A stretch of 64,000 nucleotides of DNA. Source: Dermatophagoides farinae. Lineage: Eukaryota; Arthropoda; Arachnida; Sarcoptiformes; Pyroglyphidae. Both the position numbers and the translations under genes were made by a program. Below, one piece after another: positions 2,525-51,947 of the stretch. The notes beneath the pieces are model-generated. The model saw only the letters and a program-made list of their open reading frames with translations. It did no database searches and was not told the origin of the DNA. Location: assembly GCF_024713945.1 (NCBI RefSeq), contig NC_134677.1, positions 4,963,001 to 5,027,000 on the forward strand, given 5' to 3'. Positions within the stretch are counted from its first letter, which is position 1. Each line of letters begins with the position of its first letter.

Positions 2525-3234
2525 TTAAAGATGAATGTATTTCAATTCATTCTCTAAAATTGGACGAACTGTTTCATCGACAGCATCGATAATCTGTGCA
2601 TTGAACAATTTAACAACTCCACTGGTAATAATGTCGATGATATCCTCAATGAATTTGATGTGTTCTGCATCTTTCAATCGGAGATGAATTTTAGAGATTT
2701 CATTGATATAAAACGAGTCGAGAGTGATATTTGTGCCAACTTTTAAACCAATATCAAAGTTCATGCTTTCGATATGTGCGACAATTGGAATTGCCGGAAT
2801 CGACGGGAACGAAGCTATATGGCCAGAAATATCAGCATCTAATACTACTTCTTTAGTAGTGACCAATTCGATGTTGACATTGATAGATCCATCTTTGCTT
2901 TCGATCTTACAATTGCCCATTCGTTTTAACGTATCAAAACCTTGAATAACACCTTTGGAAATTTTAAGATGACCACTGATTGGGATTATTCCGATATTTT
3001 CAGTAATATCTTGTTCATAATCTTTGTGAAGTTTCATTGGATTTAAAAGTTCCGATTTGAGGAGACCACCCAACATCTGATCAGCGAGATTGTTCATGGC
3101 ATCTTGCTTTTTATCAGCTTGAATTTTAAGTCAAAAATCATTCAATTGCATATTCTAAATTATTTATTATTTTACTTACCTAAAACTGTTCCAGCGACCA
3201 AGCAAAACAAAGCACAAGCATAGACAGATTTCAT
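2525..3234 (-). CDS. Group 7 mite allergen-like secreted protein (Der p 7 / BPI-like fold family)
   Basis: Two exons on the minus strand: exon 1 at 3180-3234 and exon 2 at 2525-3117, joined across a 62-bp intron (donor GTAAGT, acceptor TTCAAG, phase 1). The product is 215 residues, the length I recall for Der p 7. Residues 1-19 (MKSVYACALFCLVAGTVLA) form a clean signal peptide, so it is secreted. The block NIGIIPISGHLKISKGVIQG, followed by LKRMGNCKIESKDG, matches the conserved core of group 7 allergens in order and spacing. The family has a super-roll fold related to LPS-binding/BPI and juvenile-hormone-binding proteins and is thought to bind a lipid; its exact ligand is uncertain. Overall similarity to Der p 7 looks moderate, so this is probably a paralogue or an orthologue from another genus. 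It is convergent with RPC1. Confidence 0.85.
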
Positions 3235-9354: not shown

Positions 9355-12300
9355 TTATGACGTCGAAGAGTCGCCACTATTATAAAGTTTCCAATACTTT
9401 TTTTTCAATACTATCAATTCATCATGAGTGCCTTCTTCTACATTTTGGCCACGATCAATGACAATAATTTTATCCGAATTAACAATTGTTTTTAAACGAT
9501 GTGCGATAACTAAACAAGTGCGATCTTTTGATGCTTGATTCAACGCATCCTGAACAATCTGTTCGGAAGCTGTATCCAATGCCGATGTAGCTTCATCCAA
9601 TAATAATATGGATGGATCACGAACTAAAGCCCGAGCAATAGCGATACGTTGTTTTTGACCACCGGATAGTTGTGCACCTTTTGAACCTACAGGTGTATCA
9701 TAACCTTGCGGCAAATTTTTGATGAAATCATGAACATTTGCCATTTGAGCAGCATGAACTATTTCATCAAATGGAACTGTTTCACGGAAATTATCACCAT
9801 AAGCAATATTATCTCGTATGCTATAACTAAAAAGTACTGGTTCCTGTGATACTAATGCCATCTGTGATCGAAGCCAATCAACATCCAATTCCAAAATGTT
9901 CTTGTCGTCCAGATACTTGGAAAAAATGGAAAAATTTAGGATTGTGGTTTAAAATAGCCAAAAAGAAAATAGCAAGCGCAGAAAATAGCCTCGTTTACTA
10001 ATCAATAGATTGTACGGAGTTTTGTTTGGAAAAATATGGTAGCCTTAAAGCCAAATTTAGTTTTGTACCGTAATTTAGCGACGATTACCCGTAGATTAAC
10101 AATGATTTTTTGCTCAAAAAAAACTTACCACTTTTCCACGTATGCAATCATAGAAACGTTCCAATAATTGTATGGATGTCGATTTACCACAACCGGAAGC
10201 TCCGACTAGACTAACTTTTTCACCTTTGGAAGCTTTGAACGACAACCCATTCAAGATCGGTAAATTTGGTCTTAATGGGTAATGAAAATGAACACCACGA
10301 AAAGAAATTTTGCCATCTGATCGACCTTGATTTGTAAATTTTTCTTGCATCAAATATGCTGGCATCAGATCTTTAATGGGTTTACGATCAATCATCTTGA
10401 ATATGTTCAATGCAGCAATTTTAGCTTTTGTATAATCAGATGATAGCACGGCACTTTGTCCAACAACAACAGAACCCCAGATCATAGATTCGACGATTCT
10501 AAGAAAAAGAGTATTTTAAGATTTATAGACTGAAAAAATCCAAATGTAAGAAACTTACTTGAAAAAATTTCCCGAATCAAGCAATCCTTTTGAGATCAAA
10601 AATCCTCCATATAGAAAAACTATAGTGTATGCGAAAAATTGTACACCCAATGCAAACGAAATCATCAATGCTTTGATGAAACATTTCCATTTAAATGATC
10701 GATAATTTTTCATTAATGTATCTTCAAATTTATCAAGAAAATATTGTTCTTTATGTAGTGAAACCACTGTTCGAATGGAATTGATTACTTCAATAATAAT
10801 TTTCGAAGATTTTTCAGATGATTCATTTTCATTACCAGCTTGAGATGAATAAGCTGAACTACTAATAACCGATGCAAATGCAATCAATGGTAATAATGTC
10901 ATCGATAAAAGTGATAGACGCCAATTACACATAAATCCCATGACCACTGATACGATCAATGTAGATACTGCTTGACAAATCATCGAAACACGCAGACCAG
11001 TGGCTCCTTGAACGTTGGCAGCGTCATTTGCTAAACGACTACATAAAGCACCGGCACTATTTTCTGGATTATCAAAAAAGGTAACTTCCTGTTGAAGAAT
11101 AGCCGAATATGCCATTATACGAAGCCGTTTAGTAAGTTTCTCTCCAACTATTCCAAATAATGAAATTTGAATGATACAACAAATGAGAATACAGGTTGCT
11201 AATATTAGGAAATACATGGCATAGATGTTGGTTTGTTCTTGAATGTAATCGGATTGAGACTTGATATCGTACAACGTAAATAAATAAACAAATTCACCAA
11301 AGATGAATGCATAGATTGGCGTAGAAAGACCATAAAGGAGTGCTGCAATGAATGCTATTATGAAATAGAATTTATCCATCCAAATAAGTTTTATAAGACG
11401 CATATGTGGGAATTTGTTACGTTTTAAATTTTCTAAATCTTCTTTGGTTATCTCTTCATCATCCTTATAGCAATCGGCAACACTTCCATTTTCGCTAACC
11501 ACTGTTCCGGCTTTTGGTCGGATCACACTTTCATACGTTAATGTTCGAGTTCGAGAAACTGGTATTGGTCGACTTGGAGAGGCTAAAATCTCAAATTGTG
11601 AATGTGTTGCTCGACGTTTCTGTTGTAGAGTAAGCGGTTCTAAGGTTGATGATTGTGATTTTAATAATGTCTGTTTTTTTGGCAGAACTGGTTCATTTGT
11701 TTCTATCTGTTGAGCCATGACCAAATTGAAATATTTATTTTTAAGTTTCATCAAATGTTGATGTGTTCCTTGTTCAACAAGACGACCTTGCTCAATAAAC
11801 AGAATACGATCTGCATTTTTAATGGTTGATAATCGATGAGCAATAATAATGGTCGTTCGACCTTTACTAGCTTGATTCAATACTTCTTGTACAATGTGCT
11901 CGCTTTCCAAATCTAATGCCGATGTTGCCTCATCCAATAATAAAATCTTTGGATTAGAAATCAATGCACGAGCAATAGCGATTCGTTGTTTTTGCCCACC
12001 CGATAATTGTTTACCTCGATCACCAACATATGTCTTATATTTGTCTGGTAATTTACTGATAAATTCGTGTGCATTAGCTGCGATTGCGGCTTGTTCAATA
12101 TCTTCAATGGTTACATTGTCCATCTGATCGATTGGCATACCCATACGAATATTCTCTTCGATTGATGTGTCAAACAATACTGGTTCTTGTCCGACGACAC
12201 CTATTTGTCCGCGAAGCCAACCCGTATGAATATCACGGGTATTTACACCATCTAACTGAATTTCACCACTATCTGGATCATAATAACGCTGAATTAACTG

Positions 12301-13837
12301 AATAATGGTACTTTTGCCAGAACCAGAAAATCCAACGAGTGCCACGATTTCGCCACATTTGATTTTTAGATTTAAGCCTTGTAGAATTCGGATATCTGGC
12401 CTTGTTGGATAGCCGAAATAAACATTTTTGAATTCTATATCAGTTTTGAAATTTGTTCGTAAAGTTTTTCCTCGGGAATGCATAGAATCAATTTTTGATC
12501 GTCGTTCGAGGATATCCATGATTGATTTGGCCGATGTCTTGCCAATCTGAAATGATTCATAGAATGGTGCAGCGTAGCCAATATTGTAACCACATCCGGT
12601 TATGCCTGTTATAAAAACAAGTTTATTATATAGTGATATGTAATTAAATTAATTCAACAATACCCCAGAATATGATGACAATATCGTCAATTGTATAGAC
12701 ATCAGTAGGTGATATGATTAACTTTACACCGTACCATAAACCAACCGCAAAGCTTACATACAATGTAGCCCAATTTATCGAATTTCCGATAGCGTTGACA
12801 ATGTTTCTTTTGAATCCATACACCATGGCAGGATGTAATCGTGTTTCATAGCGTTTCAATTCTTTATATTGACCACTGAAAGCAAAGACAGTTCGAATGG
12901 CTGAAATGGCTTCCTCTGCCACCGAACTAGCCGATGAATATTCTGTCAATTCTTTTTGTGTATAATGGCTTTGAAACTGTGAATAAGGTATATTAATATT
13001 GATATTTTTTGAATGCCAAGGTCATGTTTCTCTATTTACCTTTGTCATAACGAACGAAGTGATAACAATCAACGGAGCCATAGCAACGATAGCCAAAGAT
13101 AGTTTCCAACCATACCAGAATCCAATAATAAGATTCATTGCTGCACCTACAACATTATATATCAAAAGTCCAAGGTTTTCGTTAAAACCATTTTCGAATT
13201 TTTTGAAATCACTATTTCAAGAAAAAAATAATCAATTAATGAAAATTAAAAATAGATTCAATCAACCGAATCGTCAATCGTATGTTATTGTCAATTTTGA
13301 TTGATCACGAAAAACAACATACCTGGCTATTCTCGCTGCAAACTCTCCGGAATTATGTTGATCATGCCATGCTAGCTCTTGCGTGATAATTGAATGAAAA
13401 TATCGTCGCTTTATATTGTTCGCCAGATTGAAGGCCAATAATTGAAATGAATATAGAGTGAGAAGATTGCCAACAACAAATAGTATGAAAGAAATGAATG
13501 TCAATCCTGACCAATAGTAGACATTGTACATGAATTTATCACGTGTTTCATCATGGGTTTCCGTTTGATTTGGATTTTCATGTTCAAATTGTACGAACAC
13601 ACCGACCACTTTACCAAACGTTACGTTCAACAATGGCCAATTCACACCGGCCAATGTAGAACCAAAAATACCAATAAATATAAATAAATGGTCATATTTT
13701 GTTGCATATTTTAGCTAAAAAAATAATTTATAAATTAACTAATTTTTGAACATTAAAAAACTCACAATTTGTCCCAATGATGCAGATGTACGTTTGTCAC
13801 TGTTGATCTTTTCGGAAATTTTTTTCCTTTGATGCAT
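9355..13837 (-). CDS. Full-length ABCB-type transporter (P-glycoprotein / multidrug-resistance family)
   Basis: Seven minus-strand exons: 13766-13837, 13323-13714, 13040-13211, 12664-12976, 10559-12605, 10129-10498 and 9355-9915. They join in frame to 1308 residues, the usual size of a TMD-NBD-TMD-NBD exporter. NBD1 has Walker [10 protein letters not shown] (about 408-416), LSGGQKQR (from about 517), [12 protein letters not shown] (about 537) and the IIAHRLSTI switch. NBD2 has GASGCGKST (about 1098-1106), LSGGQ (about 1205) and [11 protein letters not shown] (about 1225). Both half-transporters keep all catalytic motifs, so the pump should use ATP at both sites to export amphipathic compounds at the plasma membrane. 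The start is the first Met of the frame ([10 protein letters not shown]); a stop lies further upstream. Introns are 51-213 bp. A homologous role in xenobiotic or acaricide efflux is an inference from the family. Confidence 0.95.
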
Positions 13838-16424: not shown

Positions 16425-16913
16425 GATGAATTCAAATTATCACAAATTCATATACAACACATAAGAAATCGAATATGAAAAAAACAGTGATAAAAAAAGT
16501 CAAAAAAATTAAGAAAACAAAAAATAAATGAAAACCAAAAATTATCTTATGAATGCTCTCCGTACAACAGTTTGATTTATATACTCATTTTTGTTACGTT
16601 TTTTTTTTGAATTATACTTCCATTCATAAGATTACTAAAACTTTCTCTCATTAGGATTTTTTTTGCATCCCTTCCTCTCACTGATCACAAAAATGATGAG
16701 TTAAAGTCGTCCACTCAATAATTGTGAGGAAATTTTATTTTCGAAAAGAAATTTCCGCTAACATATTCGGATTTAATAGATTCACTAAATTAGCTTCGCA
16801 ATAATTAAGTAGGAAGTTTTTTTGCTTCCAACCGATCTCAATCAATAATAAAAGATTTTTATCTAAAATGAGAAAAAAATCAGCAATGAAATATATATGG
16901 ACAAAGGCAATGA
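16425..16913. other. Short intergenic region; left edge of the ClC duplication at 16800
   Basis: No gene is seen. A minus-strand AATAAA at 16734-16739 could serve the downstream ClC copy. It lies outside the duplicated unit, so the two copies cannot share the same poly(A) site. Confidence 0.5.
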
Positions 16914-19900
16914 TTATCTAGATTGATTATTTATTTCCATAACTTCAGTGAATGATGTCAATGTATCTTCATGGTGAGGATCAAATTCAATATTGTATAA
17001 ATAATTGTTAGCTTCTTCGGAATCTTCATGTGGTTGCAATAGACCTTGATTCAGCTTATCGATACCATTTTTGAGCTTTTTTTAAAAAAGAGTTATTTTT
17101 GAAATGATCAATATTAATGAATAAGAAATCACTTATAAAAAAACTCACATCTGCAAGATCAACAAGACCAATTAAACGTCCAACTGAAGTGACATATGCC
17201 CGCGATAAGCTCAACATTGAGAAAAATAGATGAACTTTATAGATGGTTGTACGTTCAACCAGTTGAAATGGTGCTGGATCAATACAACAATCGTTAAAAT
17301 CTACAACGGTATTTAATTGTTCCTCTTCCCATTTGTGTTGCTCTTCTGCTGTCATGTCAATGACACGTTCACGAGGCTAAAATTATGTTCATGAATGAGA
17401 TATCTAATGATTTCAAGTCATGATATTCTTACCAATTGAACGCTTCGTTCAATGATGGGTGGTTTTGTTGTCATACTTTCGGCTGATTGTTTCAACTTGA
17501 ATAAATGTCTCTTTAAAAATTCTTGATAAATATAAATGTTTTACTTACTGGATTCGGATGTGCATCTTCAAGATGTAAACTTTTCTGAAAAATATTTTCA
17601 AATACCTGTCGTAAACGCGAATCCTTGCGGATACTTGAATTGGTATTTATCGTAGAATGAGGTGAATATGTAGTTATAGTAAATGTTTGTTTCAAGATCG
17701 ATTTAGGCTTCACAGGTGATCTTCGATCGATCGCTGATTGATTAATTCGTTTGTCTTCATAATCATTCGATGAAACTAAGCTGACATTAAAACGAGATTT
17801 ATTCGTCGGTGATGGAATTTGTTCATAATCCATGAACGGAGTTATGAATTGAATTGAATCTTCATCACTTTCTGTCTCAATACCAAGAGCATATTCTTGA
17901 AGACTATTCTTTCGTACTACTTCTTGTAATCGACGTTCACGGCATAGAAGACAATCAACAATTCGTTCCAATTCATCACGTTGAACTGAACCTAACAAAA
18001 TCATATTCTTGCAATTATCAACCAAGGGAAATGTCCGTATTTCAGGATTATTAGATAACAAATTTACTATATCACGATAAGTAAAATTTTTTAGCCATAC
18101 AAAAACCAAATTACGGACCATAATATCATCGACAAAAATGTTATGTGCCAATGAATTAGCAACCATGATCGGTGGCAAAAATGGTAATTTTTTGATCTGT
18201 ATAACTGAATCATATATTGATAACTCCAATTTTTGACTGATTGCATTTGATATGAGTACAGATAAAATAACCGGTATCATATGGCTCATTTGGCCAGTCA
18301 TTTCGAACACGATCACCGTAATACTAATTGTATGTGTAACAGCTCCGGTAAATGCAGCAGCGCCTATATCAATGAGAGAAAATCAATCAAATTAACTCAT
18401 CATTTCATCAATAAGCAAGTTTTGTTTTTTTAATGTGGAAATGATGATAAGCTTACCAACAACAGAATAACCACCAGGTACAATTGGTATGGTATAACCA
18501 CTAAATGATATACCGTCTGGAAAACAAGCAGCCATAATTTCACCTACTAATCGGCCGAAAGTGGCACCAATTTTGAAAACTAAAGTGAAAAAAACGATTA
18601 CAGAATTGAATTTATAGATAATTAAAAAAATTGTAAGTACTTGGTATGAACAATCCATGTGGAACTGGTATGGTAGATGCCAAAATCGACATCCAAAACT
18701 ATTGGAAGTCGAAACGATTTTTAATTAACATGTAAAATGAAATACACTAAATCCTACCGTATTGAAGATGGTAATGATGAGGTTAGTATAAATGCTTGTA
18801 TGGTTAGTGGACCAATGTTGGACCATCGTTAAATGTTTTGAATCATTACTACCATGTACATCCCAAGTTATGTTGCTGAACAATTCTTTAAATGTTTGTG
18901 GATTGGATAGCTACGTTAAAAAATCGAATAAACAATTACGAATATCAATTCAATTAGATTCGACAAAATGTCATTGTAAAAACATACAAATGAGGCCATG
19001 TATTGTCCCATAAAAGGTGGAAACGAAATGGACATCAATAATAAAGTTACCACGGTTGGATATACGAATCGACTAGAAAGAATAAAAAAATTAATTCAAA
19101 TTTAAATAAACATTACAATTCGTTAAATCAACTGATTATCAAGGCTGACAAGATAATTTAAAGAATTTTTTCTTGTTTACAATACTTTTTTTTTAGAAAT
19201 GCATTCAACGTTTTCTGATTCCGGATGTAATGAACGAGCCAGCGATGACAACGAACATAAAAGGCACCACCAAAACCACAAGCAACACCGATAAAAGCAA
19301 ATACCAATAATTCTTGTGGATCGAATGGAAAATCAGTACGAAAATTTGTTTTGAATAATGAAGTCAATGCAGCTATAGAACAAAAGAAAAAAAAGGATGA
19401 ATGAATAATCATCATTGCTATATCATGTTTTAATGATTTTTTTTTGTTTAGTTAGTTTGGATAGTTTGAAGAAAAAAAAAATGAAAATAATATGCATATG
19501 AAAATCAAAATATGAGACCTTCTTTACGAAAGAAAACTGTCAACAAACGCCAAAAGGTTGCTGCAGAGCAAGCGGAAAAGAACCCACGCCAATAACTTCG
19601 AATAGCAAAAAAATCCGTGGTTACTTCTACTGAGAATAATACACCACCTATTGGTGAATAAAATGTGGTGGCAACGCCTACGGCACAAGCCACAGCCAAC
19701 ATTTCGGTGGTTCGTGCATCACGATCATATACATGCTGAAATGACCCAATCACTTTGGATAAGATTGTTGCTACCATTGAACATGTATGTACAAAACTAA
19801 AAAAAGAAAATCTTATCAAATCTTAATAAAATTAGAAAGAGACAAAACTTACGGTCCTTCCTTGCCAAATGGCAATCCACTGCCCAATATACACGCCAAA

Positions 19901-20680
19901 CCGATTAATTTGGCAACCAATGTCCGAAATGATAGATATTCATGAAGAATCACTCCGCGTAATATAGTTTTCATTTCAGGTATACCCGATCCAGTTGCCT
20001 GTGGCGAAATGATACCAACTACACCGGTTGCAAACACAAGAAGCAAGACGGGAAATGTTATCCAACCAAAATATCTAATCACAATGTTATACGTAAAAAG
20101 TTGATCGTACAATAGCACACGAGTTTGATGACATTGTAAAACGAAAACTAATTTTATTTAGAAATTATATTTTTTCTAGGTGAAATGATTGTCGAAAATA
20201 TCCATACTCACAATCAAGGGTAAAACTAATGATAGCCATCGTGATACCCAATAAAGCAAGGAATGGCCAATCTTCGTCAATAATACCCAATGTATATTTC
20301 CATATGAAACCAAAACATCCTGAATTTATTGTAAGAAAATATTTTGGTCACGAATATTCCTGAGAATACATTTTCAATGACAAACCTGATATTGCACGAA
20401 AAAAACTTGATTCTCGTATTAGTGATATCGGTTTGGCACCCCTTGAACGGCTTGATGCAAGTGAACGTGAAAATCTGGCTAAATCTTTTTTATATTGGCC
20501 ATACATCTAATAAACATTGAAAATCAAATTGGTCAGTCGAATTCATGTTTTATTAAAATGAAAAAATATATTTTTTATTGGAATAAAAACACAAAAAACT
20601 AATGCAAAAAATTAAAAATTCATTCCACTTACCAAAGTCTGTTCGAAATCCATAGTATTTTCAATTTGTAGATTGACCAT
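16914..20680 (-). CDS. ClC-2-type voltage-gated chloride channel, copy A (downstream, more diverged)
   Basis: Fourteen minus-strand exons: 20633-20680, 20386-20506, 20212-20319, 19853-20147, 19519-19796, 19186-19372, 18988-19072, 18758-18910, 18641-18698, 18457-18579, 17549-18363, 17433-17495, 17149-17376, 16914-17075. They join to 907 residues, close to vertebrate ClC-2 (about 900). ClC anion-path motifs are intact: GSGIPE (about 145-150), GKEGP with the gating glutamate (about E189), and GLFIP (about 440-444, family GxFxP). The cytoplasmic C terminus carries two CBS-type segments (from [10 protein letters not shown], about 565, and [12 protein letters not shown]... in exon 13). Such channels carry resting and volume-regulated chloride current at the plasma membrane. 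Relative to copy B it has departed from family consensus at several sites ([23 protein letters not shown]). Exon 5 uses an odd donor, GTCTCA. Confidence 0.94.
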
Positions 20681-21900
20681 TATGATGGTGTAATTATTAT
20701 GTTCTTTGTTGACGATTCAATTCAAAATGAAACCAAGGCATTAAACGATCAATCGACAATCAATTAGTTATAATTACCCATCAGAAAAATTATTTGATTG
20801 ATTGCTGTTTGTTGTTTGATTTTGTTGATTGATGTTTGATTTAACAATCAAACACTTTATCATTTTTTTGACGACAAACCGACATAATCCAAAGATGGGA
20901 AAAAATATCTAAAAAAGATCTCTTTTGATTTGCATATGAGAAACCGGAAATATGTATATGTATGTTTTTGTGTAACAAAACAAATCAACTGCTTATGACG
21001 AGATAACGAGATCTTGATATTATTATTTAGTTTCTTCTATAGAAATAAAAACATTTCGTTAGACAATTTCGTTTATTTACAACCAGAAATCTAAGTGCGA
21101 AAATTTTATTTGTATGGTTCATTCGCACTAGTTTTTAAGTCTCTATTATCATCATCAAGGTCAGTTTCTGGCTCTGGATGTCAATCATTAAATTATTCAT
21201 TTTTTTTGCAAGTTAGGTCGTTGATTGTTTGATCACTGCCGCTTGTATGATATAGTATTTAATTAATTTATTGATCATCATAATCAATCAGTTGAATGGA
21301 ATAATTTTTATTTTTAATGACAGTTGATTTGAATATTGATAACTGCTACAAGGTCAAAAAATTATAAACATATAAAATACAGTAATACCCCGCTTAACGC
21401 GGGGGTTACGTTCCAAAAATTCAGAGCGTTAAGCGAAACAGCGCTAAGCGGGGCTATCTTTACATAATGCATTTTTACCCTTCATATACAATGTAACAAT
21501 GTAATGCAATGTAGGGTAATTATACAGCGTTATATCGAATCAACGCTAAACGGGGCAGCGTTAAGCGGGGTATGAGTGTATAAAAATAAAATGAGAAAAA
21601 AAAATGATCTACTGCTACAATGCCATCTTGCGGCCAAAATGAGATTAGAGCAATTTAATTTCATAATTACAAGAATAATCGGGAAATGAGTATTGATGAC
21701 AATAAATAATTTGTTCTTATTCAAGCTGAAATAAGTTGTACAAACGAAAAAAAAAATTTCTGCTTGACTTGTTTTGAGTTTTTAATAATTAAGTCGGAAG
21801 TTTTTTTTTTGCTTCCAACCGATCTCGATCGATAATAAAAGATTTTTATATAAAATGAGAAAAAAATCAGCAATGAAATATTTATGGACAAAGGCAATGA
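20681..21900. other. Spacer between the two ClC copies; 5' flank of copy A plus 3' flank of copy B
   Basis: The region up to 21783 is the upstream flank of copy A and is the paralogue of 25637-26516. It keeps an 8-bp inverted repeat (GTTTGATT-TAAC-AATCAAAC) near 20832-20851 that copy B also has. It contains the MITE at 21380-21578. From 21784 to 21900 lies the 3' flank of copy B. No separate gene is seen. Confidence 0.55.
21380..21578. mobile_element. TA-flanked MITE inserted in the 5' flank of ClC copy A only
   Basis: The left end is CAGTAATACCCCGCTTAACG; the reverse complement of the right end is CACTCATACCCCGCTTAACG. A TA dinucleotide lies outside each end (21378-21379 and 21579-21580). 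The arms are GC-rich against an AT-rich interior, a pattern typical of pogo/Tigger-like or mariner-like non-autonomous elements. The 199-bp element lacks coding capacity. The paralogous position in the other ClC flank (about 26321-26330) has no insertion. Confidence 0.9.
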
Positions 21901-24900
21901 TTATTTAGATTGATTATTTATTTCCATAACTTCAGTGAATGATGTCAATGAATCTTCATGGTGAGGATCAAATTCAATATTGTCCAAATAATTGTTAGCT
22001 TCTTCTGAATCTTCATGTGGTTGCAATAGACCTTGATTCAGCTTATCGATACCATTTTTGAGCTTTTTTAAAAAACATTTTTGAAATGATTAATATCAAC
22101 GAATAAGAAAATCACTTATGAAAAAACTCACATCTGCAAGATCGACAAGACCAACTAAACGTCCAACTGAAGTGACATATGCTCGCGATAAGCTCAACAT
22201 TGAAAATAATAGATGAACTTTATAGATGGTTGTACGCTCAACAAGTTGAAATGGTGCCGGATCAATACAACAATCGTTAAAATCTACAACGGTATTTAAT
22301 TGTTCCTCTTCCCATTTGTGTTGCTCTTCTGTTGTCATGTCAATGACACGTTCACGAGGCTAAAAAGATGTTCATGAATGAGATATCTAATGATTACAAG
22401 TCATGATATTCTTACCAATTGAACCCTTCGTTCAATAATAGGTGGTTTTGTTGTCATACTTTCGACTGATTGTTTCAACTTGAATAAATGTCTCTTTAAA
22501 AATTCTTGATAAATATAAATGTTTTACTTACTGGATTCGGATGTGCATCTTCAAGATGTAAACTTTTCTGAAAAATATTTTCAAATACCTGTCGTAAACG
22601 TGAATCCTTGTGGATACTTGAATTGGTATTTATTGTAGAATGAGGTGAATATGTAGTTATAGTAAATGTTTGTTTTAAGATCGATTTAGGCTTCACAGGT
22701 GATCCTCGATCGATCGCTGATTGATTAATTCGTTTGTCTTCATAATCATTCGATGGAACCAAGCTGACATCAAAACGAGATTTATTCGTCGGTGATGAAA
22801 TTTGTTCATAATCCATTAACGGTGTTATGAATTGAATTGACTCTTCATCACTTTCTGGCTCAATACCAAGAGCATTCTGTTGAAGACTATTCTTTCGTTC
22901 TACTTCTTGTAATCGACGTTCACGGCATAGAAGACAATCAACAATTCGTTCCAATTCTTCACGTTGAACTGATCCTAACAAAATCATATTCTTGCCATTA
23001 TTAACCAAGGGAAATGTCCGTATTTCAGGATTTTTAGACAACAAATTTACTATATCACGATAAGTACAATTTTTTCGCCATACAAAAACCAGATTACGGA
23101 CCATAATATCATCGACAAAAATGCTATGTGCCAATGAACTAGCACCCATGATCGGTGGCAAAAATGGTAATTTTTTTATCTGTATAACTGAATCATATAT
23201 TGATAACTCCAATTTTTGACTGATTGCATTTGATATGAGTACCGCTAATATAACCGGTATCATATGGCTTATTTGGCCAGTCATTTCGAACACGATCACC
23301 GTAGTACTAATTGTATGTGTAACAGCTCCGGAAAATGCAGCAGCGCCTATATCAATGAGAGAAAATCAATCAAATTAACTCATCATTTCAATAATCAAGT
23401 TACCAACAACCGAATAACCACCAGGTACAATTGGTATCATATAACCACTAAATGGTATACCGCGTGGAAAACAAGCAGCCATAATTTCACCGACTAATCG
23501 GCCAAAAGTGGCGCCAACTTTAAGAACTAAAGTGAAAAAAACGATCATAGAATTGAATTTATAGATAATTAAAAAAATTGTAAGTACTTGGTAAGAACAA
23601 TCCATGTGGAACTGGTATGGTAGATGCCAAAATCGACATCCAAAACTATTGGAAGTCGAAACGATTTTTAATTAACATGTAAAATGAAATACACTAAATC
23701 CTACCGTATTGAGGACTGTTATGATGAGATTAGTATAAATGCTTGTATGGTTAGTGGACCAATGTTTGACCATCGTTAAATGTTTGGAATCATTACTACC
23801 ATGTACATTCCAAGTTATGTTGCTGAACAATTCTTTAAATGTCTGTGGGTTGGATAGCTACGTTAAAAAATCGAATAAATAACAATTACGAATATCAATT
23901 CAATTAGATTCGACACAATGTCATTGTAAAAACATACAAATGAGGCCATGTATTGTCCCATAAAAGGTGGAAACGAAATGGACATCAATAATAAAGTTAC
24001 CACGGTTGGATATACGAATCGACTAGAAAGAATAAAAAAATTAAATCAAATTTGAAGAAACATTACAATTCGTTGAATAAACTGATTATCAAGGCTGATA
24101 AGATGATCTAAATTTTTTCTTGTTTACAATACTTTTTTTTCAGAAATGCATTCAACGTTTTCTGATTCCGGATGTAATGAACGAGCCAACGATGGCAACG
24201 AACATAAAAGGCACCACCAAAACCACAAGCAACACCGATAAAAGCAAATACCAATAATTCTTGTGGATCGAATGGAAAATCTGTACGAAAACTTGTTTTG
24301 AACAATGAAGTCAATGAAGCTATAGAACAAAAGAAAGAAAAAATGATGAATGAATAATAATCATTGCTATATCCTGTTTCATTGATTTTTTTTTGTTTAG
24401 TTTGCTATTTAGATAGTCCGAAGAAAAAAATGAAAATAATATGCATATGAAAATCGAAATATGAGACCTTCTTTACGAAACCAAACGGCCAACAAACGCC
24501 AAAAGGTTGCTGCAGAACAAGCGGAAAAGAACCCACGCCAATAATTTCGAATAGCAAAAAAATCCGTGGTTACTTCTACTGAGAATAATACACCACCTAT
24601 TGGTGCATAAAATGTGGTAGCAACGCCTACGGCACAAGCAGCAGCCAACATTTCGATGGTTCGTGCATCACGATCATATTCACGTTGAAATGACCCAATC
24701 AGTTTGGACAAGACTGTTGCGACCAATGAACCTGTATGAACAAAACTAAAAAAAGAAAATTTAAGCCAATGAATAGAATTAGAAAGAGACAAAACTCACG
24801 GTCCTTCCTTGCCCAATGGCAATCCACTGCCCAATAAACAGGCCAAACCGATTAATTTGGCAACCAATGTCCGAAATGATAGATATTCATGAAGAATCAC

Positions 24901-26516
24901 ACCACGTAATACAGTTTTCATTTCAGGTATGCCCGATCCAGTTGCCTGTGGCGAAATGATGCTAACTATACCGGTTGCAAACACAAGAAGCAAGACGGGA
25001 AATGTTATCCAACCAAAATATCTAATCACAATGTTATACGTAAAAAGTTGATCGTACAATAGCATTCGAGTTTGATGACATTGTAAAACGAAAACTAATT
25101 TTATTTAGAAATTATAGTTTTTCTAGGTGGAATGATGGGCAAAAATGCCCATACTCACAATCAAGCGTAAAACTAATGATGGCCATGGTGATACCCAATA
25201 AGGCAAGGAATGGCCAATCTTCGTCAATAATACCCAATGTATATTTCCATATGAAACCAAAACGTCCTGAATTTATTGCAAGAAAATATTTTGGTCACGA
25301 ATATTCCTGAGAAGACATTTACAATGACAAACCTGATATTGCACGAAAAAAACTTGATTCTCGTATTAGTGATTTCGGTTTGGATCGTATGGCACGCCTT
25401 GAACGTCTTGATGCAAGTGAACGTGCAAATCTGGCCAAATCTTTTTTATATTGGCCATACATCTAATAAACATTGAAAATCAAATGGGTCAGTCGAATTC
25501 ATGTATTATTAAAATGAAAAAATATATTTTTTATTGGAATAAAAACACAAAAAACTAATGCAAAAAATGAAAAATTCATTGCACTTACCAAAGTCTGTTC
25601 GAAATCCATAGTATTTTCAATTTGTCGATTTTCCATTATGATGGTGGTTTGACTGTGTAATTATTATGTTCTTTGTTGACGATTCAATTCAAAATGAAAC
25701 CAAGGAATTAAACGATCAATCGACAATCAATTAGTTATAATTACCGATCAGAAAAATTATTTGATTGATTGATGTTTGATTTAACAATCAAACACTTTAT
25801 CATTTTTTTTGACGACAAACCGACATAATCCAAACATGGGAAAAAATATCTAAAAAAGATCTCTTTTGATTTGCGTATGAGAAACCGAAAATTTGTATAT
25901 GTATGTGTTTGTGTAACAAAACAAATCGACCGCTTATAACGAGATAACGAGATCTCGATATTATTATTTAGTTTCTTCTATAGAAATAAAAACATTTCGT
26001 TAGACAATTTTGTTTATTTACAACCAGAAATCTAAGTGTGAAAAATTTTATTTGTATCGTTCATTCGCACTGGTTTTTAAGTCTCTATTATCATCATCAA
26101 GGTCTGTTTCTGGCTCTGGGTGTCAATCATTAAATTATTCATTTTTTTGCAAGTTAGGTCGTTGATTGTTTGATCACTGCCGCTTGTATGATCTAGTTTT
26201 TATTTTCGAAATTAATTTATTGATCATAATAATCAATCAGTTGAATGGAATAATTTTTATTTTTAATGACAGTTGATTTGAATATTGATAACAGCTACAA
26301 GGTCAAAAAATTATAAACATATAAAATGAGAAAAAAATGATCCACTTCTACAATGCCATCTTGCGGCCAAAATGAGATTAGAGCAATTTGATTTCATAAT
26401 TACAAGAATAATCGGGAAATGAGTATTGATGACAATAAATAATTTGTTCTTATTCAAGCTGAAATAAGTTGTACAAACGAAAAAAAAAATTTCTGCTTGA
26501 TCTGTTTTGAGTTTTT
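21784..26516. repeat. Tandem duplication, unit B (contains upstream ClC copy)
   Basis: Second unit of the direct tandem duplication, collinear with 16800-21783. Homology stops at 26516, after GTTTTGAGTTTTT, where this copy continues into unique sequence (CTATTTTGTC). No microhomology or mobile element is evident at the junction. Confidence 0.9.
21901..25636 (-). CDS. ClC-2-type voltage-gated chloride channel, copy B (upstream, more consensus-like)
   Basis: Fourteen minus-strand exons: 25589-25636, 25333-25462, 25159-25266, 24800-25094, 24468-24745, 24133-24319, 23938-24022, 23705-23857, 23588-23645, 23404-23526, 22532-23346, 22416-22478, 22132-22359, 21901-22062. They join to 910 residues with the same intron phases as copy A. 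Exon 2 has three extra codons. [15 protein letters not shown] and GLFLP are present, as are both C-terminal CBS-type segments. Copy B keeps [25 protein letters not shown] and [14 protein letters not shown], which match ClC-2 channels more closely than copy A does. It is probably the copy with the ancestral function. Exon 5 shares the non-consensus donor GTCTCA. Each copy has its own upstream flank. Confidence 0.95.
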
Positions 26517-27061: not shown

Positions 27062-28833
27062 TCAGAAAAACAAGATATAATCAACTCTGTTGGGACATCA
27101 TTTCATGGGGTTCAAAAACAAAACATTATGACCACCAAAAAACAGAGTTTTATTTGGTTTGAGAGAAACAAAATTTTTATCGATTTAATGGATACAAATT
27201 TTTCTCTGATTCTGTTTTGATCCGTGTAATAGCAAAAAAAAATATTAATTATGATTGATCTATAGATTGAATGTATCGATAAATCAAAATTATCAGATAA
27301 TCTTGAAAAAAATGAAGATTTTCGATTGTCAATAGCAACAAGGACCACACATGAGTGATCAAATATTCCACTTGTAACGTATGAATTCCAAGGACACTTG
27401 AAAGACGACAAACAAACATCCACAATGATTATCAAATATTTGAAGGCAATGTTTTCTAAGCCTTTTTCACCATCATTTTCTTAAAATAAAATCGTCCATG
27501 TGTTCGTGTTTATGTGTGCTGGATAAAACTTATTGAAGGAATTTTTTTTTCTTTATCAAATTTATTCTGATTTGTCAGTTATGATTTGTGCTATTAGAAA
27601 ATTTTATTTGATTTTCTTCTTCTTTTTCTTGGGTGGAGAGAAGAAAAAACGAATAAAAAACTTGTCTTGATTCGATTATTATGTTGATTTGTTCACAAGA
27701 TTTTTATTCTTTATTTTTGGTTTCAATTTCAAAGTTCAAGTTTGAAAACCATTGAGATATTCATCATCAATTCTTTGCTCATTACTTATGTTTCTTTCAT
27801 TCAATTGGTTTTATTTGTTGTTTCGAAATTGTTCTATATAACAGGAATCAATTTTGGGCAAAAACTTTACATCATTATCATCATCATCAGCAACAACAAC
27901 AATTGACGGCTATTGTCAAGAATCATCAGGCATAAATACATACAACTTTTTCCATCCAATATTGGCTTAATGTTTGATATTTTTATCTTGTTTGTTTATT
28001 TGTTCCAATATATTTCATCGTATCATTGAATCATCACGGATCATCATCGTCATCATCATCATCCATCGTGATTGGCATCATACTATAACACACATACACT
28101 TGTACACATATCTATTGGAAATTATCAAGAGGGTCGAATAAATGTGATGATTACATTAAATAGGATTTTTTATCTTGTTGTAGACGCAAAAAGTAAAAAA
28201 AAATGTTAGAAAATGAAAATGATGATGATGATGATGAAAGGTTTACTTCTGATGATATTTGTCCCTATAGAGGTTTCTCAAGAGACTTAATTCTTTTTTC
28301 TCTTTATGATTCTTTATTTGTTCGTTCATTTTTTTTTCTCTTTTATTTTTGTGTAATCATTACTTTTTCATGGTACGTTGAACGCCCTTTTTTCATCTTT
28401 TTTTTTGAATTGAAAACTAAAAACTACATTTTTTTCATAATCATTTGAACATGTACAGTGCAGTATCATCATCGTCGTCGACATCAACATATCAACATCA
28501 TCGTCAATTGATAAATTACTTTAGTGGAAAAATAAGAGGAAAAAAAAAAGTTAAACATCAACAAATCGACATAACAATCGGACTCATCGACAATACGTAT
28601 AGTAACTCTAGAAAAAAGTTTTTCGTCTATTTTGCTCAGATCGTTCAGGAACTACTACTGATAACCATTCCATTTGTTAGATTTACAAAGAACAAAAGCG
28701 ACAAGAATATTATTGCAATAGTTCGACGAAATAGTTTTGTTTGAAACTTCAGTGTAAGAAATCTTCAAACTAAAGTGAAAGTTAAAGTCAAGTAAGTTTT
28801 CAGTCGACGGCAACCAATTCAATTGTGAAAAAA
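25637..28833. other. Intergenic region upstream of ClC copy B
   Basis: Up to 26516 this is the duplicated 5' flank of ClC copy B; beyond that it is unique A+T-rich DNA with an (ACC)n/(ATC)n tract at about 27028-27063 and several (ATC)n tracts. Two uninterrupted small frames (26743-26961, 72 codons, basic; 28451-28744, 97 codons) were seen but not accepted as genes. The second lies just upstream of the dioxygenase gene and may be 5'-UTR. Confidence 0.5.
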
Positions 28834-30152
28834 ATGTTGAAAAATTCGAATAACAAAAATGATGAAAATAATTTGGATCTTGATGCTATTTCCACTCTAT
28901 TTAATCGTGATGGATTTGTTTTGATCGAAAATTTTTTGCCAACAACGATGATCGATGAGTTGTTAATCGAAACGAAAAATTTAGTTGAACAATTTGATCC
29001 GCAACAAACATTGAACAATGATAATGAAGAAGTGACCATATTCTCTGCAGGACAAAAACAATCAACTAATGAATATTTTCTTGGGTCAGGTGATAAAATA
29101 CGGTATTTTCTCGAACAAGATGCATGGGATGAAAAAAATAATTCTCTCCGAGTGCCGAAAATAAATTCATTAAATAAAATTGGTCATGCATTACATTGGT
29201 TGAATCCAGTTTTTAAACGATTTACATTCCAGCAGCGTTTTCAAAATATTGTTCGATCGATAGGTTTCGAAGATCCATTGGTCGTACAAAGTATGGTTAT
29301 ATTTAAAAATCCACGCATTGGCACCGAAGTTCCTGATCATCAGGATGCAACATTTCTATATTCAACGCCTGATCCACGTGTGATGGGAGTCTGGTTACCT
29401 CTTCAAGATGCTACGGTAAGTTTTAAAACTGAATTTGAATTTCCAATCATGTTTATTGCGAACTCATAGGTCGACTTTTAATTCAATTTAGGCAGTCTTT
29501 TTTTTCATTTTTTTCATACTTTTCATACTCGGTAATTGAATTATATCATGATGATGATCCAAAATTTTGAATTCAAAATTTTATTTATTGAATTTTTATT
29601 TTTATTTTGTTTTTAAATGTCCCAAAGGAAACCAATGGTTGTTTACAATTCATTCCAGGTTCACATCGTACACATCCATTACAAAAACGTTGGATACGTC
29701 ACCTAGATCCTATAGATGGCCGTGTATACATGGAATATGTACATCGTGATTGGTACAGTATTCCAGGCAACAATCACCATATTGACAGTGATGAAAAAGA
29801 ATTGTTGAATAAATCAAAATTCATATCGGTACCAGCTTCGAAAGGTTCTTGTTTGTTGATCGATGGCCTAGTCGTTCATCGAAGCGATCCGAATTTATCG
29901 GATAAAGCAAGACCAGCTTATACATTCCACATATTTGATCAAGGATTTGTTCATGATAAGTATGATGATGATGAACGAAAAATCCTAGAACATCAATCAA
30001 CAACAACATCGAAGCCAAAACCAAAACCAAAACGGCAATGGAATCCGTTTAATTGGATTCAACCAACCGATCAATACTCGTTTCCACGCTTATATCGGAA
30101 TGGTCATGATGATGATAATGATTATGATGGCGTTTCCTCAGACTTCAAATGA
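28834..30152 (+). CDS. PHYHD1: Phytanoyl-CoA dioxygenase domain-containing protein (PHYHD1-like)
   Basis: Two exons, 28834-29415 and 29628-30152, joined in phase 0 across a 212-bp intron (GTAAGT donor, CCCAAAG acceptor), give 368 residues. The fold is the double-stranded beta-helix of Fe(II)/2-oxoglutarate oxygenases. The iron ligands are visible as PDHQD (H169, D171) and VVHRSD (H278), and the arginine expected to hold 2-oxoglutarate lies in SDKARPAYTFH (about R289). The stretch ETNGCLQFIPGSH is typical of PHYHD1. No targeting signal is seen, so it is likely cytosolic; the physiological substrate of PHYHD1 is not settled. About 65 residues after the catalytic domain form an unusual basic/Asp-rich tail (KPKPKPKRQWNPFNW). 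I start at the ATG at 28834 because the three codons before it begin with GTG. Confidence 0.93.
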
Positions 30153-30693
30153 AATGTTTTTTGTAGAATTCAGTATGGTGATGATGATGATGATGAAACA
30201 ACAAATATAATCGAAATATAAGCAAAAACAAGAAAAAAGTCCCGAAAAAAAATTCCCTCTTACCACCATTATCATCATCATCAAAAACAACGCCACAAAA
30301 AGTAACGATCCATTTGAATCCGATTGCCAGAATCTATCTTGAAAAAAACATATAATTCATAATATAATATTATAAATTACATACAAGATATATATGTAGT
30401 TACATACATACATACATTATTACATCCTTATAAATATACATACATTTCCGTTTCATTTCATTTTTTTTCTCTCAAATATGGTCTTAAGACATTAATCTTG
30501 AAAAAAAACTAAACCAATAATAATAATAATAATAGAGATCGATTATTGATCTTTTTCGATTTTTGTTGTTGTCATGATTCTAACATTTTTTATTTTATTT
30601 TTATACTAATCATCAAATCCATAATGATAAAATGTATGAATGAATTGGTGATTCACAAAATGGCAAAGTTGAAAAAGAGATGAGTGATTCATT

Positions 30694-30731
30694 CATACAA
30701 GACACAAATTATATAATTTGTGTCTTGTATG
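30694..30731. repeat. Perfect 38-bp palindrome
   Basis: CATACAAGACACAAATTA (30694-30711) is followed by TA and by its exact reverse complement TAATTTGTGTCTTGTATG (30714-30731). There is effectively no loop, so it can form a cruciform. It lies about 540 bp downstream of the dioxygenase stop. No flanking target duplication is visible. Confidence 0.9.
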
Positions 30732-31563
30732 CATATATCAATGATCTGAGACCCGATGCAAATAATAATACCAATGATTATAATCAAAATGTCAAACATT
30801 CTTCTAAACTAATGTTGTTGATGATTTTTATTAGTTTCAACCATGGACATTTTTTTATTCAATTTTCATTTTTAGTTTTTATTCTATTTTATATTCTAAA
30901 ATGATTTGATAAAAATCGATAGTAGTGAAAATTGTTTATAATTGTAAATCAAACCTATGTTAAAAAAGCATTTCGGAAAAAATTATTACATCATTATTAT
31001 CCAAAAAAAACATTTGGTTGGCTATCAGAAACAACAAATAATGACCAACAAAAGCATTTCGAAACATCCAATCAAATAGACTACAAACAAAAACAAAACG
31101 AAAAAATATCCGTTTAGACAATAATAATATCATTTTAGGAGGATCCGTTCTCATTTATATATTATTACATTACATCATTTTGTTCATCATCGTTCTGATT
31201 GTCTAAATATTTTTTCTAAAAAAAAAAATATTCAATTATTACAACCATCTAATTGGTGATCGTTACAAACAAACCTATAGCCACAAGCGAGAATCAGAGG
31301 GAAAAAAATTTCTAAAATGAAATTTGAAATGATGATTCGCAATGAGATAATATGACAATTTCTGGTGATGATGATTCTCAAAAATTTTTTTCATTTAACA
31401 AAACATATATTAGCCATTTATAGTTACTACTAAATGTCATTTTATCGTTAATCGAAATGGTACTCTTATAACAAACAAATCATTATTTTCTTCATGGCCT
31501 ATAGGCGTGCGATCATGAGAGAATAAACAGTTGTCATCATTTTTTAATATTATTATTTCTACA

Positions 31564-51494: not shown

Positions 51495-51947
51495 TCAATC
51501 CTTGACATATTTATTCTCCACTAGACCAACGTCCATGGTTGATCTATATGTACAGCTGAATGATATAGCATCATTTCTTTGTGATTCCAAACATTTCAGA
51601 TGACAACAACGACAAAATATATTCCTTAATGTTTCTTTGAATGCTTCACGAAATTCGCGATTAAAATAGGCGTATATAATTGGATTCATAGCTGAATTTA
51701 GATATCCAACCCAGAATACGATATGTACGATAACTTTTGGTATTTCGGCATTCGTTATGGTGCTCAAAACATACCATATAAAAAACGGTAGCCAACATAA
51801 AATGAATGCACCCATAATGATGCCTAATGTTTTAGCTGCTTTATGTTCGCGTTTCATTTTCGATATTGTACGTTTGGTCGGTGTTGATGAACCTGATTCC
51901 GGATCAGCATCACAATGTGAATTTCGATGTGACGGTGCTGATTGAAT
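51495..51947 (-). CDS. Aminergic GPCR, 3' terminal exon (TM6-TM7 and tail); beta-adrenergic-like octopamine receptor type
   Basis: A minus-strand exon of 150 codons plus stop begins after a TTTAG acceptor at 51948-51949. It opens with the end of intracellular loop 3 ([18 protein letters not shown]...), then [20 protein letters not shown] and the TM6 CWLPFF motif. TM7 reads [20 protein letters not shown] with the NPxxY motif, followed by the helix 8 segment [13 protein letters not shown] and a cysteine cluster (FCRCCHLKC) suited to palmitoylation. KREHKAA-TLGIIMG, the W after CWLPFF, and FWVGYLNS...[12 protein letters not shown] are the pattern of arthropod beta-like octopamine receptors, which couple to Gs and cAMP at the plasma membrane. 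Subtype is an inference. TM1-TM5 are absent from the window and must lie in exons to the right, probably beyond 64000. Confidence 0.93.

Follow-up and report, generated by a model that had tools for sequence, protein, structure and literature searches.

The window analysed here, a stretch of 64,000 nucleotides of the genome of the dust mite Dermatophagoides farinae (contig C1, positions 4963001–5027000), carries two adjacent genes for a chloride channel of the ClC-2 type, arranged head to tail and with transcription running from copy 2 towards copy 1 (Table 1). Our analysis confirmed that the two units containing these genes are a true tandem duplication: they lie in direct orientation in ungapped sequence and their divergence is above the allelic level. 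We consider it very probable that a unit of about 4.8 kb was duplicated head to tail in the D. farinae lineage, that this provided a divergent ClC-2-type channel with a second complete gene, and that both genes have been retained as working genes. The pair is an ordinary gene-family duplication of a known channel type; it represents a clean tandem chloride-channel pair in a medically important allergen source, for which a distant third gene serves as outgroup.

Two head-to-tail units, each with a complete gene

Comparison of the window with itself by BLASTN paired positions 16800–21378 with 21784–26327 in direct orientation, with 92.9% identity over 4,621 columns (119 of them gap columns), and a second direct match joined 21586–21783 to 26321–26516 with 96.5% identity. 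The borders of the repeat are sharp, and the 64-kb window does not contain a single N. No obvious microhomology was visible by eye at the junction of the two units. A search of the D. farinae genome (62,435,336 bases in 22 contigs, the scope of all genome searches reported here) with the DNA of unit 2 revealed no third tandem unit among the best candidates scored: the 11 matches correspond to the two units and to a more distant ClC-2-type gene located on contig C9, hereafter the C9 gene.

The exons of copy 1 were modelled by eye, and their boundaries were transferred to copy 2 via the DNA alignment. In these models, the 13 introns are all of the GT-AG type and all occupy the same position, in the same phase, in the two copies, and neither frame contains an internal stop. 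Seven of the 13 introns are exactly equal in length, the biggest difference being observed for intron 10 (93 bases in copy 1 vs. 57 in copy 2). The nine extra bases of copy 2 in exon 2 correspond to three residues in the stretch that follows the N-terminal ball (see below). An earlier reading of the letters alone (the sequence-only reading) had proposed a complete 14-exon ClC-2-type gene duplicated head to tail, with 13 introns alike in position and phase and with uninterrupted frames of 907 and 910 residues. The self-comparison and the spliced gene models bear out this proposal, including its coordinates, its exon number and both protein lengths. The mite origin supposed by that reading is likewise supported: a gene of this genome, spliced by hand, encodes a protein that aligns with the solved structure of Der f 2 (1ahk) over 129 residues with a single mismatch, and its score is higher for Der f 2 (290.3 bits) than for Der p 2 (at most 266.7 bits).

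The same reading had attributed to each gene about 0.9–1.1 kb of 5′ flank. These sizes are correct, except that the 1,103 bases of unit 1 are inflated by an insertion resembling a miniature inverted-repeat transposable element (MITE), without which both flanks measure about 0.9 kb. The alignment of the units displays a 216-base gap in unit 2 that includes this 199-bp MITE-like element. The corresponding site of unit 2 is empty, although the match is imperfect, with about ten more differing bases beside it. In the genome, the best 40 of 97 candidates scored, this copy included, match the element with 95–100% identity, and a TA is present on both sides in all 11 copies inspected, again including this one.

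Table 1. Coordinates of the tandem units, gene models and associated elements (positions in the window, unless a contig is named)
Feature	Position	Strand	Description
Tandem unit 1	16800..21783	-	Lies downstream with respect to transcription; 114 bases past the stop codon, gene copy 1 and 5′ flank with MITE-like insertion; self-BLAST and unit alignment
Tandem unit 2	21784..26516	-	Lies upstream with respect to transcription; self-BLAST and unit alignment
Junction of units 1 and 2	21768..21790	.	Where the 5′ flank of unit 1 meets the 3′ flank of unit 2; border sequences inspected
Copy 1 coding region	16914..20680	-	14 exons, 907 aa; GT-AG introns, open frame; Pfam Voltage_CLC E 1.2e-69
Copy 1 exons 1–7	20633-20680, 20386-20506, 20212-20319, 19853-20147, 19519-19796, 19186-19372, 18988-19072	-	
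Copy 1 exons 8–14	18758-18910, 18641-18698, 18457-18579, 17549-18363, 17433-17495, 17149-17376, 16914-17075	-	
Copy 2 coding region	21901..25636	-	14 exons, 910 aa; gene model; Pfam Voltage_CLC E 4e-72
Copy 2 exons 1–7	25589-25636, 25333-25462, 25159-25266, 24800-25094, 24468-24745, 24133-24319, 23938-24022	-	
Copy 2 exons 8–14	23705-23857, 23588-23645, 23404-23526, 22532-23346, 22416-22478, 22132-22359, 21901-22062	-	
36-base piece of intron 10	18408..18443	-	Absent from copy 2; largest indel within the genes; unit alignment
Exon 2 site with 9 extra in-frame bases in copy 2	20434	-	Sole coding indel; unit and protein alignments
5′ flank of copy 1	20681..21783	-	Putative promoter region, split by insertion
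5′ flank of copy 2	25637..26516	-	Putative promoter region
199-bp MITE-like element	21380..21578	.	Inverted ends, each bordered by TA (21378-21379, 21579-21580); not present in unit 2
Third ClC-2-type gene	L015:1564-6047 (contig C9)		11 exons, 899 aa; intron 2 of 1,184 bases

Channel type and relationship to other CLC genes

Voltage_CLC is the only Pfam family detected in the two proteins at an E-value of 0.001, with 235.6 bits for copy 1 and 243.7 bits for copy 2 (curated cut-off, 24.8). In a search of the PDB performed with copy 2, the best solved structure was CLC-2 (7xf5, 736.7 bits), in agreement with the ClC-2-type assignment made by the sequence-only reading; CLC-1 (637.6 bits) and CLC-Ka (462.8 bits) followed, and the scores of exchange transporter 3 (189.7 bits) and exchange transporter 7 (138.2 bits) were far lower. 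The margin is narrow in terms of identity, since each copy is 47% identical to CLC-2 and 46% to CLC-1 when compared with two human segments. The GSGIP, GKEGP and GxFxP motifs and the pore tyrosine, which we take to be the CLC pore motif set, are present in both spliced proteins. Both copies have also kept the residues aligned to Q19, T20, K204, E205, F252, R363 and Y553 of human CLC-2, among which E205 is presumably the gate and Y553 the pore tyrosine.

The N-terminal hairpin, or ball, is reported to set CLC-2 apart from other CLC homologs, which lack it; in the human channel, its residue Q19 contacts Q153 and its residue T20 contacts R363 (PMC10942593). In both mite copies, 8 of the 15 residues of the ball, including Q19 and T20, are identical to human residues 14–28, and the 15-residue ball is identical between copy 1 and copy 2. 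R363 is conserved in both copies and in the C9 protein. At the position of Q153, we found a Gly in copy 1, a Ser in copy 2 and a His in C9. The pair resembles human CLC-2 (CLCN2; 7xf5, 8ta3), the best PDB match of copy 2, by its ball, its GKEGP gate motif and an aligned C-terminal region. Residues 9–659 and 758–863 of copy 2 align with CLC-2, and residues 785–863 with 2d4z, a cytoplasmic fragment of a chloride channel. It differs from the human protein by an identity of about 47% (351/751 and 354/754 aligned residues), by the replacement of Q153 and by its organization as a tandem pair. A single ClC-2-type gene is known in flies. Drosophila ClC-a, to which the mite pair can be likened by description, is termed in one paper the ortholog of mammalian CLCN2 and is involved there in transepithelial transport in the stellate cells of Malpighian tubules (PMC6851788).

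The Voltage_CLC profile search of the genome led to at least 14 matches at no fewer than four places, corresponding to the pair on contig C1 and to one gene each on contigs C9, C2 and C5. The C2 and C5 genes belong to the CLC family as the pair does, but have other best PDB matches: the CLC-7-like C2 fragment (307 aa) scores 336.1 bits with 7jm6 (‘Chloride channel protein’), 330.1 bits with exchange transporter 7 and at most 91.1 bits with CLC-2, and the CLC-3-like C5 fragment (149 aa) scores 254.9 bits with exchange transporter 3 and at most 118.7 bits with CLC-2.

The C9 gene exhibits the same ball and channel architecture as the pair, and 8 of its 10 introns are located at pair positions (those of pair introns 1, 2, 4, 6, 7, 10, 12 and 13). 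Unlike the pair, it is devoid of introns 3, 5, 8, 9 and 11, has two introns of its own and is nearer to human CLC-2 (52% identity, 393/755, vs. 47% for each tandem copy). Its identity to each of the two copies is 61% (546/888 and 545/890), which indicates that the tandem duplication took place later, within a second, older lineage of the CLC-2 type, the C9 gene being the more conserved one. This third gene had been missed by the sequence-only reading. The conserved ClC-2 role would more likely rest with the C9 gene than with the pair. Candidate regulatory sequences common to the pair and the C9 gene were rejected: the matches between the 5′ regions cover just 9–61 bases (E at least 0.014) and were taken as chance.

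Divergence, constraint and competing explanations

The two units differ by 218 substitutions in 4,691 aligned columns (4.65%), and their alignment contains 18 gap blocks: 16 noncoding ones (1–36 bases), the single coding one of 9 bases and the 216-base gap mentioned above. The silent divergence is 8–10%, as estimated from four-fold degenerate sites (30/359) and from the number of synonymous substitutions per synonymous site (dS, 0.098). In the paper describing the chromosome-level assembly of D. farinae (62.43 Mb, 21 scaffolds anchored to 10 pseudochromosomes), the heterozygosity is given as 0.52% (PMC11074847), so that the substitutions between the units amount to about nine times the allelic level. 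The duplication had been called recent by the sequence-only reading; this holds in a relative sense only, the silent divergence being some 16–19 times the published heterozygosity.

The same reading had raised the concern that two haplotypes of one gene could have been placed side by side during assembly. Merging contigs from multiple assemblers can produce false duplications. The published assembly did combine contigs of several assemblers, but just 35 of 2,934 groups of the Benchmarking Universal Single-Copy Orthologs (BUSCO) are duplicated in it (PMC11074847). In addition, a heterozygosity of 0.52% is hard to reconcile with 4.65% of substitutions, 17 indels of 1–36 bases and a transposon-like insertion confined to unit 1, and both the sharp borders of the repeat and the continuity of the sequence argue against such an artefact, which we consider very unlikely.

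The differences are unevenly spread along the units (dispersion of 1.65 vs. 0.96 at random, p 0.007), so that local gene conversion or local constraint between the units is possible. Long identical runs are no commoner than chance predicts: the longest one between the units measures 135 columns (p 0.28 under random placement), and 13 runs of at least 60 columns are present vs. 12.4 expected.

Purifying selection acts on the pair taken as a whole. The Nei–Gojobori comparison of the two copies gives 0.035 nonsynonymous substitutions per site (dN) and, with the above dS, a dN/dS ratio of 0.36 (bootstrap 95% interval, 0.26–0.51). The 16 small indels present in 1,967 noncoding columns predict 22 indels in the 2,724 coding columns, where the only one observed is the 9-base, in-frame indel of exon 2 (P 5.5e-9 for at most one when 22 are expected). 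The coding sequences of the two copies differ at 130 of 2,724 columns. The two proteins differ at 69 of 907 aligned residue pairs, or 72 alignment columns if the three gapped ones are counted. When the C9 protein is used as outgroup, 37 of these 72 columns can be polarised, with 18 changes in copy 1 and 19 in copy 2, the other 35 being left unassigned. Differences between the 5′ flanks amount to 27 in 859 columns, as compared with 56 of 994 for introns (Fisher p 0.0096) and 58 of 630 for synonymous sites (p 7.8e-7). This low divergence is consistent with constraint on a promoter region in each unit, but gene conversion could give the same result. The proposal of the sequence-only reading that each copy has its own promoter region is thus upheld as far as the conservation of the flanks relative to silent sites is concerned, their promoter role being putative. 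Both genes are apparently constrained and kept by selection. As a separate observation, silent coding sites (8–10%) diverge more than introns (5.6%) or 5′ flanks (3.1%), a pattern opposite to that of unconstrained noncoding DNA.

One could suppose that one of the copies is degenerating into a pseudogene or has already fallen silent, with a frame that is intact merely because the duplication is young. The even distribution of polarised changes (18:19), the lack of stops and frameshifts in both frames, the presence of one in-frame coding indel as compared with 16 small noncoding ones, and the lower divergence of the 5′ flanks relative to silent sites all make this unlikely. However, copy 1 departs at eight sites, and copy 2 at six, from residues common to its sister, the C9 protein and human CLC-2, and the upper bound of dN/dS (0.512) reaches about 0.5, the lowest value to be expected with one unconstrained copy, so that dN/dS by itself leaves some room for this reading. 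These two results also count against the retention of two working ClC-2-type genes, together with several other points. CLC proteins are characterized by two C-terminal CBS domains, and no Pfam match to CBS domains was obtained at an E-value of 0.001 in either protein, although the C-terminal region of copy 2 aligns with CLC-2 and with 2d4z (see above). The gating of the pair may depart from the human model, since the contact residue Q153 is replaced by Gly, Ser or His in the mite proteins. Partial gene conversion could make the duplication seem younger. Finally, the expression of either copy is something that we infer from sequence.

Another explanation, which would refine the retention of two working genes rather than exclude it, is that a division or change of function has already taken place between the copies, with alterations of copy 1 in the exon 5 region past the gate glutamate and of copy 2 around the GxFxP motif (exon 10); the two channels would then differ in gating or permeation. 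Several differences point in this direction: exon 5 contains five polarised changes in copy 1 and none in copy 2 (p 0.02, the next copy 2 change, at residue 285, being just outside), copy 2 has replaced the Phe at human position 463 and the Ile at human position 465, and the Q153 position is occupied by Gly in one copy and by Ser in the other. However, these regions were picked after the data were seen, the comparison of exon 5 with the remaining protein falls short of significance (p 0.06), as does the division of the exon 10 changes, 1 (copy 1) to 3 (copy 2; p 0.60), and the overall dN/dS is far under 1. These exon counts were the only look taken at positive selection, and the exon 5 enrichment is both marginal and post hoc. 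We regard such a change of function as conceivable but doubtful; the differences hint weakly at an early divergence of the copies, and dosage would be the simplest reading of why both were kept. The sequence-only reading had also put forward a dosage increase or a split of function in ion or osmotic balance, both of which are hypothetical.

If both genes have been retained as working genes, as we favour, the upstream region of each copy would drive its transcription. On the model of human CLC-2 and Drosophila ClC-a, each product would form a double-barrelled (dimeric) channel for chloride in the plasma membrane, with the pore glutamate and the N-terminal ball acting as gates. Dosage probably explains why the pair was kept at first, and the gating residues of the two copies may by now be diverging. 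The two copies differ naturally at the Q153 position, which is known as a gating contact, and should their expression or gating prove different, the pair would lend itself to a simple study of how duplicated channels begin to diverge.

A mixed channel is conceivable because CLC channels are dimers, and the ball is identical in both copies, yet the contact position is occupied by Gly in copy 1 and by Ser in copy 2. One may thus speculate that the second CLC-2 lineage of mites is a faster-changing one whose ball-and-chain gate is being retuned, and that copies 1 and 2 could assemble into a mixed dimer with two differently gated pores, perhaps in the salt-secreting glands that mites use for water balance in dry air; we view this scenario as improbable. 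In open-access text, we found no paper linking the dust mite supracoxal gland to chloride or to Dermatophagoides water vapor. Nor did open-access text, a search that left mite genome annotation records outside, yield, among the papers listed, one on a tandem ClC-2-type pair in mites or on chloride channel protein 2 in Dermatophagoides, although the pair may still have been reported. In the same mites, the growth of another gene family is exemplified by the cysteine proteases of allergen group 1, and the terms tandem and gene duplication occur in a paper on the evolution of this family in astigmatid mites (PMC10722327).

Other features in the window

The window contains 15 open reading frames (ORFs) that reach 150 aa, and the Pfam scan covered nine long ones among them. 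Among these nine ORFs, the nearest match upstream of unit 2 is a PhyH-type dioxygenase frame (28786–29469, +; E 3.3e-20). Self-BLASTN also aligned the 70 bases at 30678–30747 with their own reverse complement (85.7% identity). Further away, a frame at 852–1424 (+; RNA_pol_Rpb1_5, E 5e-22) matches the last domain of the RNA polymerase largest subunit, and a piece of a rhodopsin-type G protein-coupled receptor lies at 51495–51947 (-; 7tm_1, E 2.3e-17). Frames of an ABC transporter extend from 9355 to 12648 (-), of which only the ORF at 10555–12648 was included in the Pfam scan; a repeat with 69% identity in this region (9393–9679 and 11730–12016) probably corresponds to the two nucleotide-binding domains of the transporter. 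Finally, an open frame at 2525–3130 (-) matches the group 7 allergen family (Grp7_allergen, E 9.8e-14).

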